Assembly (NCBI GenBank): GCA_030830475.1
Contig: JAURMX010000027.1
Coordinates: forward strand, 1-38,936
Direction of reading: 5' to 3'
Length of the DNA: 38,936 nt
Source of the DNA: Candidatus Nanopelagicales bacterium
Lineage (GTDB): Bacteria > Actinomycetota > Actinomycetes > Nanopelagicales > Nanopelagicaceae
The notes below the pieces were generated by a model that saw only the letters and a list, made by a program, of their open reading frames with translations, searched no databases and was not told where the DNA came from. The position numbers and the translations under genes were made by a program. Below are positions 24,782 to 38,936 of this stretch, piece by piece; positions within the stretch are counted from its first letter, which is position 1; each line of letters opens with the position of its first letter.

Positions 24782-25666
24782 GTGGCCGATAAGAAGTTTC
24801 TATCTTGGGTTGGTTTCAAGGGCGAAGAAGAAGCCGATAAACCAAATCTTGCTGCCGGCTCAGCAGCGCTGGATCGAATCCGTGAACTGGAATCTCAGTT
24901 AAATGATCTGCGCTCTCGACGTGACATCACCTCTTTATCCAAAGAAGAGTTTGAAATCCTGGCAACTGAAACAGCGATGTCAATCATTCGCACCGCGCAA
25001 CAACGTGAAGCGAAAGCCAACTCAAACGCCGAACGCCTTTTGTCAGAGAGTAAGAAGCAGGCAACCAGTGCAATTGAAATTGCGGAGGCAAAAGCTAAAT
25101 CCACTTTGGCTCAGGCGGAATCACGCGGCCGTAAGTATTTAGAGGCGGCAGAAAATGATGCAGCCGATATTGTTTCCAAGGCTGAATCTGAGGCTGAGGA
25201 TCTACTTAACTCGAAGAAGCGCGAAGGCTCTCAAATTACCTCAAATGCAAAGAGAGAAGCTGAGCGTCTTGTCATGTCAGCCACCACTGAGGTTTCGGAG
25301 TATCGGAGCTGGCTGGCCGGTGTTATCTCTGAGGCCGAGCGGCTTTATCGGATTCAAACCCAATCTTTAGATGCTGCTGAAAACGCCATCTCACAATCAC
25401 GAGCTCGCTTAGAGTCGGCCTTCAATAGATTGGCGGAGTTACAAAAGCAGGTGGTTGGCGCTATCGCTGCAGATGGAACACCTACTGGTGATGCCAAGTT
25501 AGCCGCACGTGTTGCACAGGCCCAACAAAATGCAGCTGAACAAAACCACAACAAGAGCGCTACGACAAAACCATCTGGTGCCAAGAGCTCTGCCAAAAAG
25601 GTTTCCAAAAACACCTCAAAAAAAGCTAAAAGTAAAGCTAAGAAAACAACTGCGAAATCTCGGTGA
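24782..25666 (+). CDS. Coiled-coil protein with histone-H1-like lysine tail
   Basis: The function is not known. The 294-residue protein has a short N-terminal patch (MADKKFLSWVGFKGEEEADK), a coiled-coil segment (residues 27-48), a long Ala/Glu/Lys/Ser-rich helical region (54-225) resembling DivIVA- or ATP-synthase-b-like stalks, an Ala/Gln-rich linker, and a tail (257-294) of Lys/Ala/Ser/Thr like histone H1 C-termini. No membrane helix or signal peptide is seen, and the DivIVA N-terminal motif is absent. The start is GTG 24782, preceded by GAGGAG. It overlaps the acyltransferase start by 1 bp (TGATG), so the two are translationally coupled, hinting at a role at the cell envelope. Confidence 0.75.
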   Translation: MADKKFLSWVGFKGEEEADKPNLAAGSAALDRIRELESQLNDLRSRRDITSLSKEEFEILATETAMSIIRTAQQREAKANSNAERLLSESKKQATSAIEIAEAKAKSTLAQAESRGRKYLEAAENDAADIVSKAESEAEDLLNSKKREGSQITSNAKREAERLVMSATTEVSEYRSWLAGVISEAERLYRIQTQSLDAAENAISQSRARLESAFNRLAELQKQVVGAIAADGTPTGDAKLAARVAQAQQNAAEQNHNKSATTKPSGAKSSAKKVSKNTSKKAKSKAKKTTAKSR

Positions 25667-27417
25667 TGTCTAGCCCCACAAACCGCTACATCCACTCGGT
25701 AGATGGATTACGAGCGGTTGCGGTAATTGCAGTTCTGCTTTATCACCTTGGTATCGATTGGATTCCGGGTGGCTTTCTTGGGGTTGATTTATTCTTTGTC
25801 ATCTCTGGTTATGTGATTACTGGATTGATTCTGGAATCAATCGCCCGCTCTGGAACTTTGGATCTAAGAGCCTTTTACCTCAGCCGCGTCCGGCGTTTGC
25901 TTCCAGCGCTGATTGCCATGTTGGTTTTCACAACTCTGTATATCGGCGTATATGCGCCCGAAACAGTGCGCCGTTTCATCTCAGATATTCCATATGCATT
26001 GAGCGGAACCATGAACTGGGCGCTTGTGGCTCGGCAGCAGGATTACTTTGAAAGCATCGGCCGACCACCTTTGTTACAACACACTTGGTCACTAGCTGTT
26101 GAGGCGCAGTTCTATTTAATTTGGCCCTTGGTGTTGCTCTTTATTCTGCGTTACTTTGGCAAGAAAAATATTTCAATTGCAGCTCTAGCTATTGCATTGG
26201 CATCAGGAATAGCGCTGTTTGCTTATTCAATTCGAATTGATACCCAAGAATCAGCAATTAGCCATGTTTACTTTGGAACTGATACTCACTCAATTGGTTT
26301 ATTTTTAGGATCTGCCTTAGCTGTTAGCTGGAAACCCCAAAACTTAACTAGGGAGATCTCCAAGCGCGCGCAGGACTTCGTTGACCTGATTGGCGTATTT
26401 GGTTTTCTCGGCCTGCTCGCAACCTTTCTATTTATCAACGAGAGTGATCCCACTCTGTATCGAATCGCATTTCCCCTAGCCGCTATATTTGGTTGCTTTA
26501 CCTTAATTTCGGTGGTTCATCCCGCATCACGATTTGCCCCTCTTTTAAGCAGCAGAGTGTTGATTTGGATCGGCGAACGTTCCTATGGCATTTATATCTG
26601 GCACTGGATCGTTTTTCAGCTTACTCGACCATCGATAGATTTGGTGGGCGATGATTGGGCCCTTTACGCCCTTCGGGTTCTAATTGTTTTTGCCTTGGCT
26701 GATATCTCTCTGCGCTATATCGAGATTCCGGTGCGCCGTGGTTACTTTGAGCTTTGGTTCCGCGGCATGAAGTACCGGACTAAATCCGTACGGTTACGTC
26801 AGAAGCTCTTCGCTTCCTGCGCCGTAATTGTCACACTTTTTTCCACCACTCTCGTATCAGTTAATGCCATGAATCGAGCTGATGAGATCATTGCCGCTGA
26901 GAAGGCTGCGGTCGCCACTGAGGATGACGTTGATCAAGTAGTAACTGATGCTGACACTCCAGGGCTTTGGGTTACCGGTGATTCGGTGATACTCGGCATT
27001 CGCAACGTTTTAGCTAAGTATGAGCGGATTGAATTAATTAATGCCCGAGTTGGAAGGCAAATAAGTGAGTTAATTGAGGTGGCACAAACCGATCAACAAT
27101 TTGTCGCTGACTCGCCTGTTGTTTTGAATCTTGGTAACAACAACCGCTTAGTTGAATCAGATGTCATATCAATGATGGAGGTTGTGCGAAATCAGCCCAA
27201 GATTATTGTGGTGAACACCGCGGTGCCGCGGAGTTGGAAGGATGAAAACAATCAGATTATTAGCTCAGTGGTGGCCCGATATCCCAATACAATCTTGGTG
27301 GACTGGGATCGCATCTCTGAAAATTACCCTGAGTACTTTGCCAGCGATGGTGTTCATCTAAATCCTCCTGGGGTCAACGCTTATGTTGCAGCGATTCGCG
27401 AAGTTTTAAATAAATAA
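25666..27417 (+). CDS. Membrane acyltransferase 3 fused to SGNH domain (OatA-like)
   Basis: The 583-residue protein has an N-terminal acyltransferase-3 domain with about ten or eleven membrane helices: YIHSVDGLRAVAVIAVLLYH with the conserved His, GVDLFFVISGYVITGLIL, and YLSRVRRLLPALIA. A C-terminal extracytoplasmic SGNH domain follows, with GDS near 438-440, LGNN and the Asp/His pair in DGVHLNPPG near 561-564. This layout moves acyl (often acetyl) groups across the membrane onto wall polymers, as OatA does for peptidoglycan. ATG 25666 overlaps the upstream stop; GTG 25663 is an alternative. The acceptor is unknown. Confidence 0.88.
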   Translation: MSSPTNRYIHSVDGLRAVAVIAVLLYHLGIDWIPGGFLGVDLFFVISGYVITGLILESIARSGTLDLRAFYLSRVRRLLPALIAMLVFTTLYIGVYAPETVRRFISDIPYALSGTMNWALVARQQDYFESIGRPPLLQHTWSLAVEAQFYLIWPLVLLFILRYFGKKNISIAALAIALASGIALFAYSIRIDTQESAISHVYFGTDTHSIGLFLGSALAVSWKPQNLTREISKRAQDFVDLIGVFGFLGLLATFLFINESDPTLYRIAFPLAAIFGCFTLISVVHPASRFAPLLSSRVLIWIGERSYGIYIWHWIVFQLTRPSIDLVGDDWALYALRVLIVFALADISLRYIEIPVRRGYFELWFRGMKYRTKSVRLRQKLFASCAVIVTLFSTTLVSVNAMNRADEIIAAEKAAVATEDDVDQVVTDADTPGLWVTGDSVILGIRNVLAKYERIELINARVGRQISELIEVAQTDQQFVADSPVVLNLGNNNRLVESDVISMMEVVRNQPKIIVVNTAVPRSWKDENNQIISSVVARYPNTILVDWDRISENYPEYFASDGVHLNPPGVNAYVAAIREVLNK

Positions 27418-27447
27418 AAAACCGCCCCGATATACGAGACGGTTTTT
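27417..27447. terminator. Bidirectional intrinsic terminator
   Basis: AAAAACCG and CGGTTTTT form the stem, with A and T tracts on both sides, so it can end transcripts from the acyltransferase gene (plus) and the H1-like gene (minus). It lies between two convergent genes. Confidence 0.85.
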
Positions 27448-27475
27448 CAATGTAATTAAAGGTGCAAATTAAATA

Positions 27476-28297
27476 TTATTGAAACTTACCCTTTAAAGAG
27501 AACTTCTTAGCATCAACTTTGGTGCCATCGGAGTAGACCGACTGAAGTAGGAACTGAGTTCCACCCTCATCACCGACCTTAGCAATTTCGTAGGAGAGTT
27601 GATCCGCTGCAACCGTGGTTACTTCAGTGAAATCAACCGCGTTGTAGGAAACTGAGATTACATATCCGGTGAGACCTTCTGTTGCATCTGGAGCCTTCCA
27701 GCGCAGAGTTACGCCTTCGCTGCCATTAGCAATTGCTACGAAGCTTTGTGGAGCTTCATATGCAGAAAGCGCTGGCTCTTCACTTGCGCTTTCAGATGGT
27801 TCCGCGGTTGGCTCCTCAGAAACAGACTCAGATGCGGTTGGAGTTGGTGTAGCACCTTCATCATCAGAGGAGTTGGTCAATGCAAAAATCGCGAGTAGAA
27901 CTACGCCAGCAATTACCAAGAACAAAACATTGCTAGAACTTTTCTTTGCTGGTGCAGCTGGTGCCGCTGTTTTTGCAGGAGCTGGTGTGCTGGTTACTGC
28001 AGCGGTGCTGCGAGATGGAACCGGTGGAATAACAATCTTTGCAGCATCAACTTTTGCGCTCGCACTTTTCTTTGCTGCAACTTTCTTGATTGCTGGCTTC
28101 TTGGTTGCTGACTTCTTGGTTGCTGGCTTCTTGGCTGCGGCTTTCTTAATCGGACGCTTTGCCGATTTCTTTACAGCTTTCTTGGCGGTTTTCTTAACCG
28201 CTTTCTTGCCCGATTTGTTAGCCACTTTTTTGGCCGGGCGCTTTGCAGCCGCCTTTTTAACTGGGCGCTTTGCAGAAGCTTTCTTCTTTGCTGCCAC
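27476..28297 (-). CDS. H1-like tail, one membrane helix and FN3-like domain protein
   Basis: The function is not known. The 273-residue protein has a Lys/Ala/Pro-rich N-terminal tail (residues 1-87, repeated KKAxAKRPxKK units like bacterial histone H1-like proteins), a Pro/Ala/Thr linker, one membrane helix at 123-141 (VLFLVIAGVVLLAIFAL), an acidic Ser/Glu/Pro linker (142-178) and a C-terminal fibronectin-III-like domain (about 182-273, with VTLRWKAP and GYVISVSYN). By the positive-inside rule the tail is cytosolic and the FN3 domain is outside. The start is GTG 28297 with strong GAAGGAG. It could tether DNA, RNA or acidic partners to the envelope, but this is inference. Confidence 0.8.
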   Translation of the reverse strand: MAAKKKASAKRPVKKAAAKRPAKKVANKSGKKAVKKTAKKAVKKSAKRPIKKAAAKKPATKKSATKKPAIKKVAAKKSASAKVDAAKIVIPPVPSRSTAAVTSTPAPAKTAAPAAPAKKSSSNVLFLVIAGVVLLAIFALTNSSDDEGATPTPTASESVSEEPTAEPSESASEEPALSAYEAPQSFVAIANGSEGVTLRWKAPDATEGLTGYVISVSYNAVDFTEVTTVAADQLSYEIAKVGDEGGTQFLLQSVYSDGTKVDAKKFSLKGKFQ

Positions 28298-28392
28298 AAC
28301 TACTCCTTCGACGTAATTTCGCTGCTTTGCTTAAGAGTGCAAGGCAGATTCAATGGCATAAGCCTACCTGCGCTATTTAAAAGTAGATGCCT

Positions 28393-28995
28393 TTAAAGGC
28401 CAATGAAGGGCTGGATTTTCGGGGCGATTTCACGCAACGCCTTGCCGCGATGACTGATCTCATCCTTCTGCTGTGGCGTCATCTGCGCAGTGGTTATCGT
28501 AAATCCTTCTGGTTGGAATATTGGGTCATAACCAAAGCCAAACTCACCCTCAGGCGTGAAGCGAACAACTCCAGACAGCTCTCCCCTAACGGTGAGATTT
28601 CTGCCATCTGGCATTGCAACCGCGATAACGCAGACAAATTGAGCGCCGCGTTGTTCAACCGGGACATCCTGCAACTCAATAAGTACCTTCTCTATATTTG
28701 CAGCATCATCGCCATGTCTGCCGGCCCAGCGCGCAGAAAATACCCCTGGTGCTCCATTTAAGGCATCGATTGCGATTCCACTGTCATCTGCCAGTGCTGG
28801 AAAGCCGGTCAAAGTGGCGATGGTATGGGCTTTTAGCAAGGCGTTCTCTTCAAAGGTGGCGCCGGTCTCTTCGACATCTGCTAAATCAAACTCAGATACA
28901 GAGCGAAGGCGCAGGTTTGGCGCATGTTCAAATAGCAATCTCTGTAACTCAGCAATTTTGCCTTGATTGCGGGTAGCAACAACTAATTCGTTCAT
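28393..28995 (-). CDS. rdgB: XTP/dITP diphosphatase (RdgB/HAM1)
   Basis: This housecleaning enzyme hydrolyses dITP and XTP to keep deaminated purines out of DNA. The 200-residue protein starts with VVATRNQGKIAELQRLL, and has TFEENALLKAH, LADDSGIAIDALNGAPGVFSAR (in adjoining parts), the GFGYDPIFQPEG motif and the C-terminal SHRGKAL. It lies 21 bp after rph; the rdgB-rph-murI order is common in actinobacteria. A 12-bp palindrome (GCCTTTAAAGGC, 28389-28400) covers its stop codon. Confidence 0.96.
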   Translation of the reverse strand: MNELVVATRNQGKIAELQRLLFEHAPNLRLRSVSEFDLADVEETGATFEENALLKAHTIATLTGFPALADDSGIAIDALNGAPGVFSARWAGRHGDDAANIEKVLIELQDVPVEQRGAQFVCVIAVAMPDGRNLTVRGELSGVVRFTPEGEFGFGYDPIFQPEGFTITTAQMTPQQKDEISHRGKALREIAPKIQPFIGL

Positions 28996-29016
28996 CGTAA
29001 TAATCTCAAAGAGGAG

Positions 29017-29790
29017 TTAACGGGCTAATGCGGATTTTTGCAGTTCGGCAAGCTGCAGACATCCCTTAGAACCTAAATCAAGGAGTTGATTAAGAAGCTC
29101 TCTATCAAAAGGTTTTCCTTCAGCTGTTCCCTGCACCTCAACAAATTTTCCGTCACCAGTACAGACAATATTCATATCGGTTTCGGCGGTTACATCCTCT
29201 TCATAGCAAAGATCAAGCATCGGGGTGCCATCAATGATTCCAACACTAACTGCGGCAACCGAATCTGAAAGCGGCGATTTTCCAGTGATATGTCCCTGCT
29301 TCATAGCCCAAGAGATTGCATCACTTAAAGCAACATAGGCGCCGGTTATTGCGGCGGTGCGGGTTCCACCATCGGCCTGCAAAACATCGCAATCTAAAAC
29401 GATGGTGTTTTCACCCAAAGCCTTCATATCAACGATGGAGCGCAAAGAGCGTCCAATTAGACGAGAGATTTCCTGGGTACGTCCGCCCAACTTTCCTTTC
29501 ACACTTTCGCGATCAGAGCGGGTGTGCGTGGCGCGCGGCAACATTGAGTACTCCGATGTAACCCAACCTTTTCCAGAACCGACCAACCATCTTGGAACTC
29601 CTGGAGTAAACGAAGCAACACATAAAACCCGGGTATTTCCAAAGGAAACTAGTACTGACCCCTCAGCCTGATTCAGCCAGCCTCGTTCAAAATTGATTTG
29701 TCTTAAATGGGTTGCGCTCCTGCCATCGATGCGGCCAGATGAGTTGCTGCCGGTGGAATTTAGAGATGTTGAGTTATCGCTGGCTGACAC
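29017..29790 (-). CDS. rph: Ribonuclease PH
   Basis: This phosphate-dependent 3' exonuclease trims tRNA precursors. The 257-residue protein has an N-terminal Ser/Asn-rich extension of about 20 residues, then [47 protein letters not shown] and the phosphate-site segment [17 protein letters not shown], followed by [19 protein letters not shown]. The start is GTG 29790. It lies between murI and rdgB. Confidence 0.97.
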
Positions 29791-29835
29791 TGGCGCTCTC
29801 TTTCACTTGAGAAATAGAAATCAAAAAAGTAATGC

Positions 29836-30726
29836 TCAAAGTTTACCTTTAACAAAGTTGACCTCAGGACCCAGGAATCTTCTAGCTAAATTAGCAAAGT
29901 TCTCCGGATCTCCACTTGAGATAAATTGATGTGTGGCTGGTGTGGATTGGGTACGTAACAAATTGTTTTGTACTAAAACTCGGTACAGATCTTTAGCTGT
30001 CTCCTCAGCGCTTGAAACTAGAGTGACCTCATTGCCCATCACATATGAGATGACACCAGTTAGCAATGGATAATGGGTGCAACCTAAAACCAAGGTATCT
30101 ATATCTGCTTTCTTCAGTGGTTGAAAATATTGCTCTGCGGCTGCCGTAACCGAAGCTCCAGATGTCTCTCCTCGCTCGACAAAGTTAACAAAATCCGGAC
30201 AGGCCACTGTTGTTAAATCTAATTGAGGGGCTGCTGCAAAGGCATCGTTGTAAGCCTGCGAATCAATGGTGGTTTGTGTTCCGATCACACCGATCTTGCC
30301 GCTCTTGGTCGCAGAAACTGCGCGACGTACCGCTGGTTGAATAACCTCAATAACCGGTATCGAATACCGCTCACGAGCATCACGAAGCATTGCAGCGCTC
30401 GCGGTGTTGCAGGCGATAACAATCGCTTTTACTCCAGCATTGACCAGGGAGTCCATAATCTCTAAAGCAAAGGAGCGCACCTCAGCTAAAGGGCGCGGGC
30501 CATAAGGTCCACGGGCGGTATCACCAAAGTAGATGGTGGATTCATTTGGTAGCTGATCAATAATCGCTCGAGCTACGGTCAGCCCACCTAGTCCAGAATC
30601 AAATATGCCTATTGGTTGGTCGGCTTGATTGGCCTGATTTGAGGGTGATACTGAGCTCGAGGACACGGGTTGAAGTGTAAAGCCCCGCAAAACTGTGGCC
30701 TGGCTCATTAAAACTTCAGATTTCAT
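29836..30726 (-). CDS. murI: Glutamate racemase
   Basis: MurI makes D-glutamate for peptidoglycan. The 296-residue protein has [18 protein letters not shown], the first catalytic Cys in [13 protein letters not shown], and the second in [11 protein letters not shown], so both are present. The start chosen gives about 37 residues (Ser/Gln-rich) before the fold, longer than usual; a Met at 30708 (residue 7) does not remove it. It is divergent from the actinorhodopsin gene. Confidence 0.94.
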
Positions 30727-37081: not shown

Positions 37082-38557
37082 ATGCGAGTTTCCCTGGAAA
37101 AACCAGTTGAAGAGCAGTTAATTGAGCTGGTGAATCAACCTGGCGGCTATGAACCACTGGGTCACTTGATTGGAATCAATCCAGAGAAGCTCACCTCTGC
37201 AGGCAAAATCGATTACTTAGCCGCTTTGGAAAAGCAAAACTCCTGGTTAACCTCACTTATACAGCGAGCGACTTTAGCTATAGCCGGATCTGAGCCTTCG
37301 GAGAGTCAAGATCTTTGGGAAGGTGTAGATGAATCTGAGCGAGAAGATGTGGCTACGGCTTTGCGACTATCTGCAAGTACTGCGCAAACCCGCATCGATG
37401 TTGCCCGAGTGCTGACTAATCATCTTCCAGCCACCTGTGAAGCACTTGCAAATGGTGACATCTCCCCCGGTCATGCAACATTGATTGCACGCGAAAGCTC
37501 CGAAGCCATTAAACGCGGTATTTCCACTGAAGATTTATTGCGGATTGAGAACAAGGCTCTCTCTCATGCTGAGTTCCATACCCCTGCACAGGTAGGTCGC
37601 AAGCTACGTTCACTATTTGCGCATGCCACTACCGAAAGTTTTGAGGAGCAGGTTATGGCGGCCCGTGATACGCGCTCTGTTCGAATGTATCCCGAAGGTG
37701 ATGGCATGGCCACACTCATTGCCTTATTGCCCATTGAGGATGCCCAGACCGTAATGCTTTCCATAAATTCGTTGATTGCCATGAGAGATTCAAAGAATTG
37801 TGCTCTCAAATCCAGTACTGGTTTTGCCAATGCCAAGGATGCAGACACCACTGAAAATTCCGACAAAGAGATGGTTGGCAATGGCAATCCCGACAATCAG
37901 GTGTTTGGCCAAAGAAGTTCCGACATTGGAGTATTTGGCAAGGGAACTTCAATTAAAGATTATGCTAAACCCCAATCTCAGGACAATCGCAACATTGATA
38001 TGAAGCGTGCGGATGCGTTAACTGAGATTTGTGGCGATTTGTTGGCCCGAATTTCTGATGAATATCAACCACATCGACGTCCAGTTTCAATAAACATCAC
38101 CATGGATCTACCAACCGCTCTTGGTCTCGCTGATAATCCAGCAGAACTGGCTGGCTATGGTCCAATTCCTGCCTCGATCGCGCGTCATCTATCTAGCGAT
38201 GCCAAATGGCGAAAGTTTGTTACCGATCCCGGCACCGGAAACCTACTTAGTTTTGGAAGAGAGAGTTATGTTCCGCCCCAACCTTTGGTGGATTTTTTAA
38301 CGGCGCGTGATCGAACCTGCAGATTCCCCGGCTGTAGTCAGCCAGCAAGGGTTTCAGACATTGACCATGCCATCCCCTGGGAAGAGGGTGGGGAAACATC
38401 TCCCGAAAATCTTGGTTTGCTTTGCCGTCGTCATCACCGTATGAAAACTCATGATGGCTGGAAACTAGAGAGCTTTGTTGATGGCTCCTGCAAATGGAGC
38501 TCACCTGCCGGCAAAGAGTTCTTTGTTCCAGCTCGCCCTATTAATGAGTCTGCTTAA
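37082..38557 (+). CDS. DUF222 domain and HNH endonuclease protein
   Basis: The 491-residue protein has an N-terminal helical DUF222 region (about residues 1-240) and a C-terminal HNH nuclease motif: DRTCRFPGCSQPARVSDIDH, IPWEEGGETSPENLGLLCRR and HHRMKTHDGW, with two Cys pairs likely to bind zinc. The family (related to the mycobacterial 13E12-type repeat proteins) is widespread and multicopy in actinobacteria; its role is unsettled. The linker holds three 10-residue repeats. No ribosome binding site is clear ahead of ATG 37082. It is convergent with tmRNA, ending 24 bp from its 3' end. Confidence 0.88.
   Translation: MRVSLEKPVEEQLIELVNQPGGYEPLGHLIGINPEKLTSAGKIDYLAALEKQNSWLTSLIQRATLAIAGSEPSESQDLWEGVDESEREDVATALRLSASTAQTRIDVARVLTNHLPATCEALANGDISPGHATLIARESSEAIKRGISTEDLLRIENKALSHAEFHTPAQVGRKLRSLFAHATTESFEEQVMAARDTRSVRMYPEGDGMATLIALLPIEDAQTVMLSINSLIAMRDSKNCALKSSTGFANAKDADTTENSDKEMVGNGNPDNQVFGQRSSDIGVFGKGTSIKDYAKPQSQDNRNIDMKRADALTEICGDLLARISDEYQPHRRPVSINITMDLPTALGLADNPAELAGYGPIPASIARHLSSDAKWRKFVTDPGTGNLLSFGRESYVPPQPLVDFLTARDRTCRFPGCSQPARVSDIDHAIPWEEGGETSPENLGLLCRRHHRMKTHDGWKLESFVDGSCKWSSPAGKEFFVPARPINESA
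37861..37950 (+). repeat. Three degenerate 30-bp tandem repeats in the HNH gene linker
   Basis: Each unit starts CGACA and has TTGGC near base 15, ending in ATCC or TTC. In protein they read DKEMVGNGNP, DNQVFGQRSS and DIGVFGKGTS, sharing D-x-x-x-V/F-G. They fall between DUF222 and the HNH domain. There are no spacers, so this is not a CRISPR array. Confidence 0.8.
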
Positions 38558-38581
38558 GAGTTAAGCATCTAGAACTGCTAA

Positions 38582-38936
38582 TGGTGGAGGTGCCGGGAAT
38601 CGAACCCGGGTCCTTCGACACTGATTCAGGGCTTCTACGGGCGTAGTGTGCTAATCGCTTTCTCAGTCCCGGTTCTCACGCACACAAGTAACCGACGAAC
38701 TCAGTTGTGTTAGATGTCCTTTCCGACAGTCACAACGCTATCGGTCAGTAAGCTCTCTATCGACGTTGGATCCTGAGGCGAGAGCAAGCTCAGGGCAACG
38801 GATTACAGCGCTCGCTTAGGCAGCGAGATCGTAATCAGACGAAGTTTTATCTGCGTCTGTTTATATGCACGGGTTTGTGTGGTTAACGAGATCATCCCGG
38901 CTTCCTCGGCCCGCTTCCCCTGGCTCAACAATCGAA
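38582..38936 (-). ncRNA. ssrA: Transfer-messenger RNA, 5' end outside the window
   Basis: The 3' end reads CCGGG-TTCGATT-CCCGG-CACCTCC-A-CCA on the minus strand, an alanine-tRNA-like T arm and acceptor with encoded CCA. The mRNA-like part (38854-38816) encodes ADKTSSDYDLAA and a TAA stop, preceded by ATAAACAGAC. Pseudoknot-like stems occupy 38600-38815. At the right edge the sequence TTCGATTGTTGAGCCAGGGG matches the region about 15 nt after the usual 5' end, so only the acceptor 5' strand and D-like arm start are missing. It rescues stalled ribosomes and tags the nascent chain for Clp-type proteases. Confidence 0.95.

Follow-up and report, generated by a model that had tools for sequence, protein, structure and literature searches.

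What could a small protein do that joins a histone H1-like basic tail to a membrane helix and a putatively outward FN3 domain? The question is raised by a 273-aa protein encoded in the window, i.e., the whole stretch of 38,936 nucleotides that was analysed. Our preferred reading, drawn by analogy with known proteins, is that it would tether nucleic acid to the envelope through tail, helix and FN3, and we would give this about an even chance. The gene, its parts and its surroundings are as follows.

27476..28297, minus strand: whole gene, 273 aa, with a GTG start at 28297-28295 and a TAA stop at 27478-27476.
28303..28306, minus strand: GGAG ribosome-binding site, 5 bases 5' of the GTG, as read from the sequence.
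28061..28297, minus strand: Lys/Ala/Pro/Arg tail, residues 1-79, predicted from composition, AlphaFold2 and relatives to be disordered and cytoplasmic.
28016..28036, minus strand: IVIPPVP motif, residues 88-94, between tail and helix, with a loose version in 89 of 139 relatives.
27875..27931, minus strand: single transmembrane helix, residues 123-141, predicted from hydropathy and AlphaFold2.
27764..27874, minus strand: acidic Ser/Glu/Pro/Thr linker, residues 142-178, defined by composition and predicted to lie outside.
27479..27763, minus strand: predicted FN3 domain, residues 179-273, from AlphaFold2, structural matches and phmmer.
27415..27449, minus strand: intrinsic-terminator-like hairpin between the 273-aa gene and the convergent acyltransferase gene, fitting by position; the number of such hairpins found is no higher than in shuffles.
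28393..30726, minus strand: conserved same-strand upstream neighbours rdgB (28393-28995), rph (29017-29790) and murI (29836-30726), from locus comparison.
25663-27417, plus strand: conserved convergent neighbour, a membrane acyltransferase (PF01757), from locus comparison.
24782-25666, plus strand: conserved convergent neighbour, a coiled-coil protein with a K-rich C-tail, from locus comparison.

The coordinates 27476-28297 given in the first-pass annotation proved correct on translation, and the strand, which had been left unstated, is minus. A plus-strand reading of the same interval was rejected because of in-frame stops, and an ORF of 215 aa that overlaps the tail on the opposite strand (27669-28316) was discarded since conservation tracks the minus strand. 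The gene occurs in one copy in the 1.22-Mb draft genome that holds the window. A promoter scan found nothing.

Judged by its modelled fold, the C-terminal domain is a divergent FN3. With 42 sequences of its own family as input, AlphaFold2 returned a seven-stranded domain at residues 181-273 (pLDDT 94-97), and the top structural matches obtained with Foldseek and VIA-align are all FN3 domains (Z 11.7-13.1). The best of these is the FN3 of Clostridium perfringens GH84C/NagJ (2w1n; Z 13.1, rmsd 1.9 over 91 residues, 24% identity), which phmmer also matches at E 1.1e-5. The structure prediction that had been proposed for the C-terminal part returns the FN3-like fold that was claimed for it. The Pfam fn3 model (PF00041) alone stays under its cut-off, the window protein scoring 17.2 of the 25 bits required for gathering (E 0.0059) and 9 of 42 family members matching at E <= 0.01. 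An alignment of 63 members shows four invariant positions in the FN3 (P, W, D, G), most of the sequences terminate in F-(G/S)-L-P-G or a near variant, and identity of the domain to that of other genera is about 35-40%. As a separate observation, a 16,932-codon open frame with many FN3-like repeats was seen in another genome (G028, contig C57).

The 19-residue hydropathy maximum begins at residue 124, and the helix predicted by AlphaFold2 spans residues 123-141, the same numbers as in the first-pass annotation; a hydrophobic helix is present in all 139 full-length relatives. The linker C-terminal to the helix contains 10 acidic and no basic residues, which agrees with the acidic Ser/Glu/Pro linker described earlier, and it is unstructured in the AlphaFold2 model. 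Across the 139 relatives, net charge ranges from +24 to +61 (mean +38) before the helix and averages -7 after it. Under the positive-inside rule, such strong charge asymmetry argues for an N-terminus inside and a C-terminus outside. The predicted topology, with a cytoplasmic tail and an outward FN3 as had been suggested, is thus supported by the distribution of charge.

A count over the 273-aa protein gave 36 K/R and a single D/E in residues 1-87, so that the Lys/Ala/Pro tail of about 87 residues ahead of residue 88 stands as first described, and AlphaFold2 assigned no structure to residues 1-120. Among the 139 relatives, the tail has a mean of 83 aa and varies in length from 49 to 122 residues, whereas its K/R fraction remains steady at 42% (sd 2%, range 34-48%) with D/E at <=2%, indicating that composition is kept and positions are not. 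The IVIPPVP motif that follows could be a docking site. Models of H1-like proteins match many of the tails: Pfam HC2 histone H1-like (PF07382) is found at E <= 0.01 in 27 of 42 family members (best E 2.4e-14), and NCBIfam NF038053 H1-like in 26 of 42. These matches follow composition, as a valine-tRNA ligase model also matches the tails in 13 of 42, and the 273-aa protein of the window itself gave no match to HC2 in the Pfam search. Further K-rich tails in the genome were sought by a PF07382 search. A DksA/TraR-like zinc-finger protein of the same genome (recognised by eye; L171, 1510-2370, contig C25 of G000) has a long N-terminal K/A/P tail of its own.

Tail, helix, linker and FN3 follow one another in this order in every one of the 139 full-length relatives (126 of them distinct), which is far beyond chance. 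A whole-protein search gave matches in 37 of 60 relatives, including a few weak ones to proteins that do not belong to the family. With a model built on the FN3 part, 188 of the 201 genomes of the order gave a match, as did 105 of the 108 near-complete ones. The true figure is a little lower, since a handful of weak matches in genera g6 and g10 fall within FN3 proteins of another kind. The named records are acI actinobacteria, an abundant freshwater group, e.g., Ca. Planktophila and Ca. Nanopelagicus. In a class sample of 297 genomes, no family member was found outside the order; other FN3 matches in the class (best E 2.8e-8) were rejected as relatives, as they are partial and lie within frames of 455-1179 aa. 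The survey of Actinobacteria that had been recommended thus finds the family near-universal in one order and absent elsewhere in the class sample. Some early-branching genera of the order are without the gene: in g6, g10 and g13, other genes occupy the slot after rdgB, and these three genera are among the early branches in a tree of rph and rdgB. In one further genome (G134) the gene is present and the contig stops within the tail. The distribution is compatible with the gene having been gained once, after the early branches had split off, in a tree whose deep nodes are weak (support 29-67). The acI genome literature that could be searched names no such protein. Family-model searches support the view that no curated family spans the whole part order, in line with the earlier remark that no named family with this arrangement was recognised. 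Two observations concern the records themselves. The gene and its neighbours occur twice in one genome (G005, contigs C3 and C5; loci L079 and L080), probably a strain or assembly duplicate. Several acI-type freshwater genomes (L104, L115, L117, L121 and others) are filed as Bifidobacterium breve, Streptomyces griseus, beta proteobacterium etc.

These parts suggest how the protein might work. It would cross the membrane once, the N-terminus lying in the cytoplasm and the C-terminus on the outer side. H1-like tails bind nucleic acid without sequence preference, and the disordered tail would do likewise, most likely with the chromosome; we infer this predicted binding from its composition and from the precedent of Rv3852. 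The helix would anchor the protein in the membrane, the acidic linker would hold the outer domain away from the membrane, and the FN3 would grip either part of the wall or a partner protein on the outer side. In these very small cells, the nucleoid surface would thereby be tethered to the envelope. Both the outer ligand of the FN3 and the tethering role are putative. If the reading is true, nucleoid positioning relative to the envelope would become testable with one small protein.

The ligand of the tail is the point at which several readings diverge. K-rich tails may equally bind RNA, ribosomes, polyphosphate or anionic lipid, which counts against the tether, and DNA, RNA and anionic lipid are indistinguishable as ligands by sequence. 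If the tail bound RNA or ribosomes, the protein would keep translation, not the chromosome, near the membrane. K/A/P-rich tails are established from H1-like proteins to bind any nucleic acid, and the sequence carries no preference for DNA. The protein has, however, no RNA-binding domain, and Rv3852, the closest studied protein, was examined as a DNA binder (PMC8233713, PMC4433263); we regard the RNA reading as unlikely. A tail without any specific partner, i.e., a Lys-rich repeat that grows by slippage and is tolerated, would account for the strong variation in length and for the other K-tails of the same genome, in the DksA/TraR-like protein and the coiled-coil protein. It appears very improbable, since the tail is found in all full-length relatives with the K/R fraction held within its narrow range and acidic residues near zero, in genomes that are small and streamlined. 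Equally remote is the reading in which the helix serves as an internal signal and its cleavage releases the FN3, the tail being merely topogenic. A loose [AVSTG]-x-A is present near the helix end in 84 of 139 relatives, but the motif is not conserved, the n-region of 120 residues far exceeds that of ordinary signals, and the charge is strictly kept. A secreted protein with a cleaved signal was rejected because the helix starts only at residue 123 and no A-x-A follows it in the window protein.

The surroundings of the gene raise another possibility. The order murI-rph-rdgB-[gene], facing the acyltransferase and coiled-coil genes, is fixed wherever a locus extends far enough to show it. The tail could be an electrostatic anchor to the inner face of the membrane or part of a polar scaffold, acting with the coiled-coil neighbour (24782-25666) in envelope growth after the loss of DivIVA. 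The coiled-coil protein, whose matches to known coiled-coil models, Scy included, are all weak, combines a conserved N-terminal aromatic patch (FLxWVGF) with its own K-rich C-tail, and its gene adjoins the 273-aa gene at every locus of sufficient length. It was not found in genera without the 273-aa gene, bar one match in G150, a 110-aa frame with 86% identity that is likely contamination. Moreover, a search of 26 genomes sampled from the order gave no DivIVA match above the Pfam cut-off, whereas such a match is present in each of three other genomes in the class, and Rv3852 interacts with the DivIVA homologue Wag31 (PMC8233713). Against this, the two genes are linked, so their joint occurrence may go back to a single acquisition of the whole block and lends little weight to a common function; two positive tails would not bind one another; and DivIVA is missing also in genera without the coiled-coil gene, where a DivIVA in its place was sought and not found. 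On balance, we consider the scaffold improbable. The nucleic acid-to-envelope tether can also be extended in this direction: a nucleoid-to-wall linker in one polypeptide, whose tail coats the chromosome surface and whose FN3 grips the wall, might have a central part in positioning the chromosome in acI, with the K-tailed coiled-coil scaffold replacing the missing DivIVA. This extension is doubtful. Several further features of the window were recorded. The acyltransferase (25663-27417) has C-terminal SGNH-like GDSV and DGVH motifs (by eye), a layout familiar from OatA-type enzymes. The window also holds a rhodopsin gene and, at 38582-38936 on the minus strand, a tmRNA (Rfam) truncated by the window end, for which the ARAGORN call (38006-38675) is displaced.

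Among known systems, GH84C/NagJ (2w1n) has an FN3 of the same fold as residues 179-273; there it belongs to a secreted enzyme built of several domains, whereas here it is the sole such domain and ends a membrane anchor. Proteins of the Hc2 (PF07382) and NF038053 type, which resemble the tails in K/A/P-rich composition as the matches above indicate, are soluble DNA binders without a membrane helix or FN3; the 273-aa protein, with its helix at residues 123-141, does not have this soluble layout. In the heparin-binding hemagglutinin HBHA, a coiled coil is followed by a K-rich tail at the C-terminus and there is no FN3, a layout closer to that of the neighbouring coiled-coil gene than to the 273-aa protein. 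HBHA (Rv0475) is a mycobacterial protein with PAKK repeats that has been reported to bind DNA and to be nucleoid-associated (PMC4433263, PMC10665949).

The closest likeness is to Rv3852 of M. tuberculosis (annotated H-NS, NF050153), a membrane-anchored nucleoid-associated protein with Lys/Ala/Pro repeats, reported DNA binding and one helix after the basic part (PMC8233713, PMC4433263). Rv3852 is held at the membrane by its helix while bound to DNA, and the nucleoid becomes condensed once the helix is lost (PMC8233713). Whether its binding to DNA matters physiologically has been called uncertain, and deleting Rv3852 failed to mimic the drug's phenotype (PMC4433263). The arrangement shared with Rv3852, a K/A/P-rich part followed by one membrane helix, is found in 139 of 139 relatives. 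Membership in the Rv3852 family was nevertheless rejected, since the curated cut-off of NF050153 (100 bits) was reached in none of seven genomes of the order, where the best score was 24.6 bits and the matches were mostly other K-rich proteins; Rv3852 is retained as a functional analogue. The two differ in that the helix of Rv3852 is C-terminal, leaving no outer linker or FN3, and in that Rv3852 is confined to a few mycobacteria. If the analogy holds, the family described here would be a second, far more widespread case of membrane-anchored nucleoid proteins of this kind, and the 273-aa protein would work like Rv3852, with an outer domain in addition.
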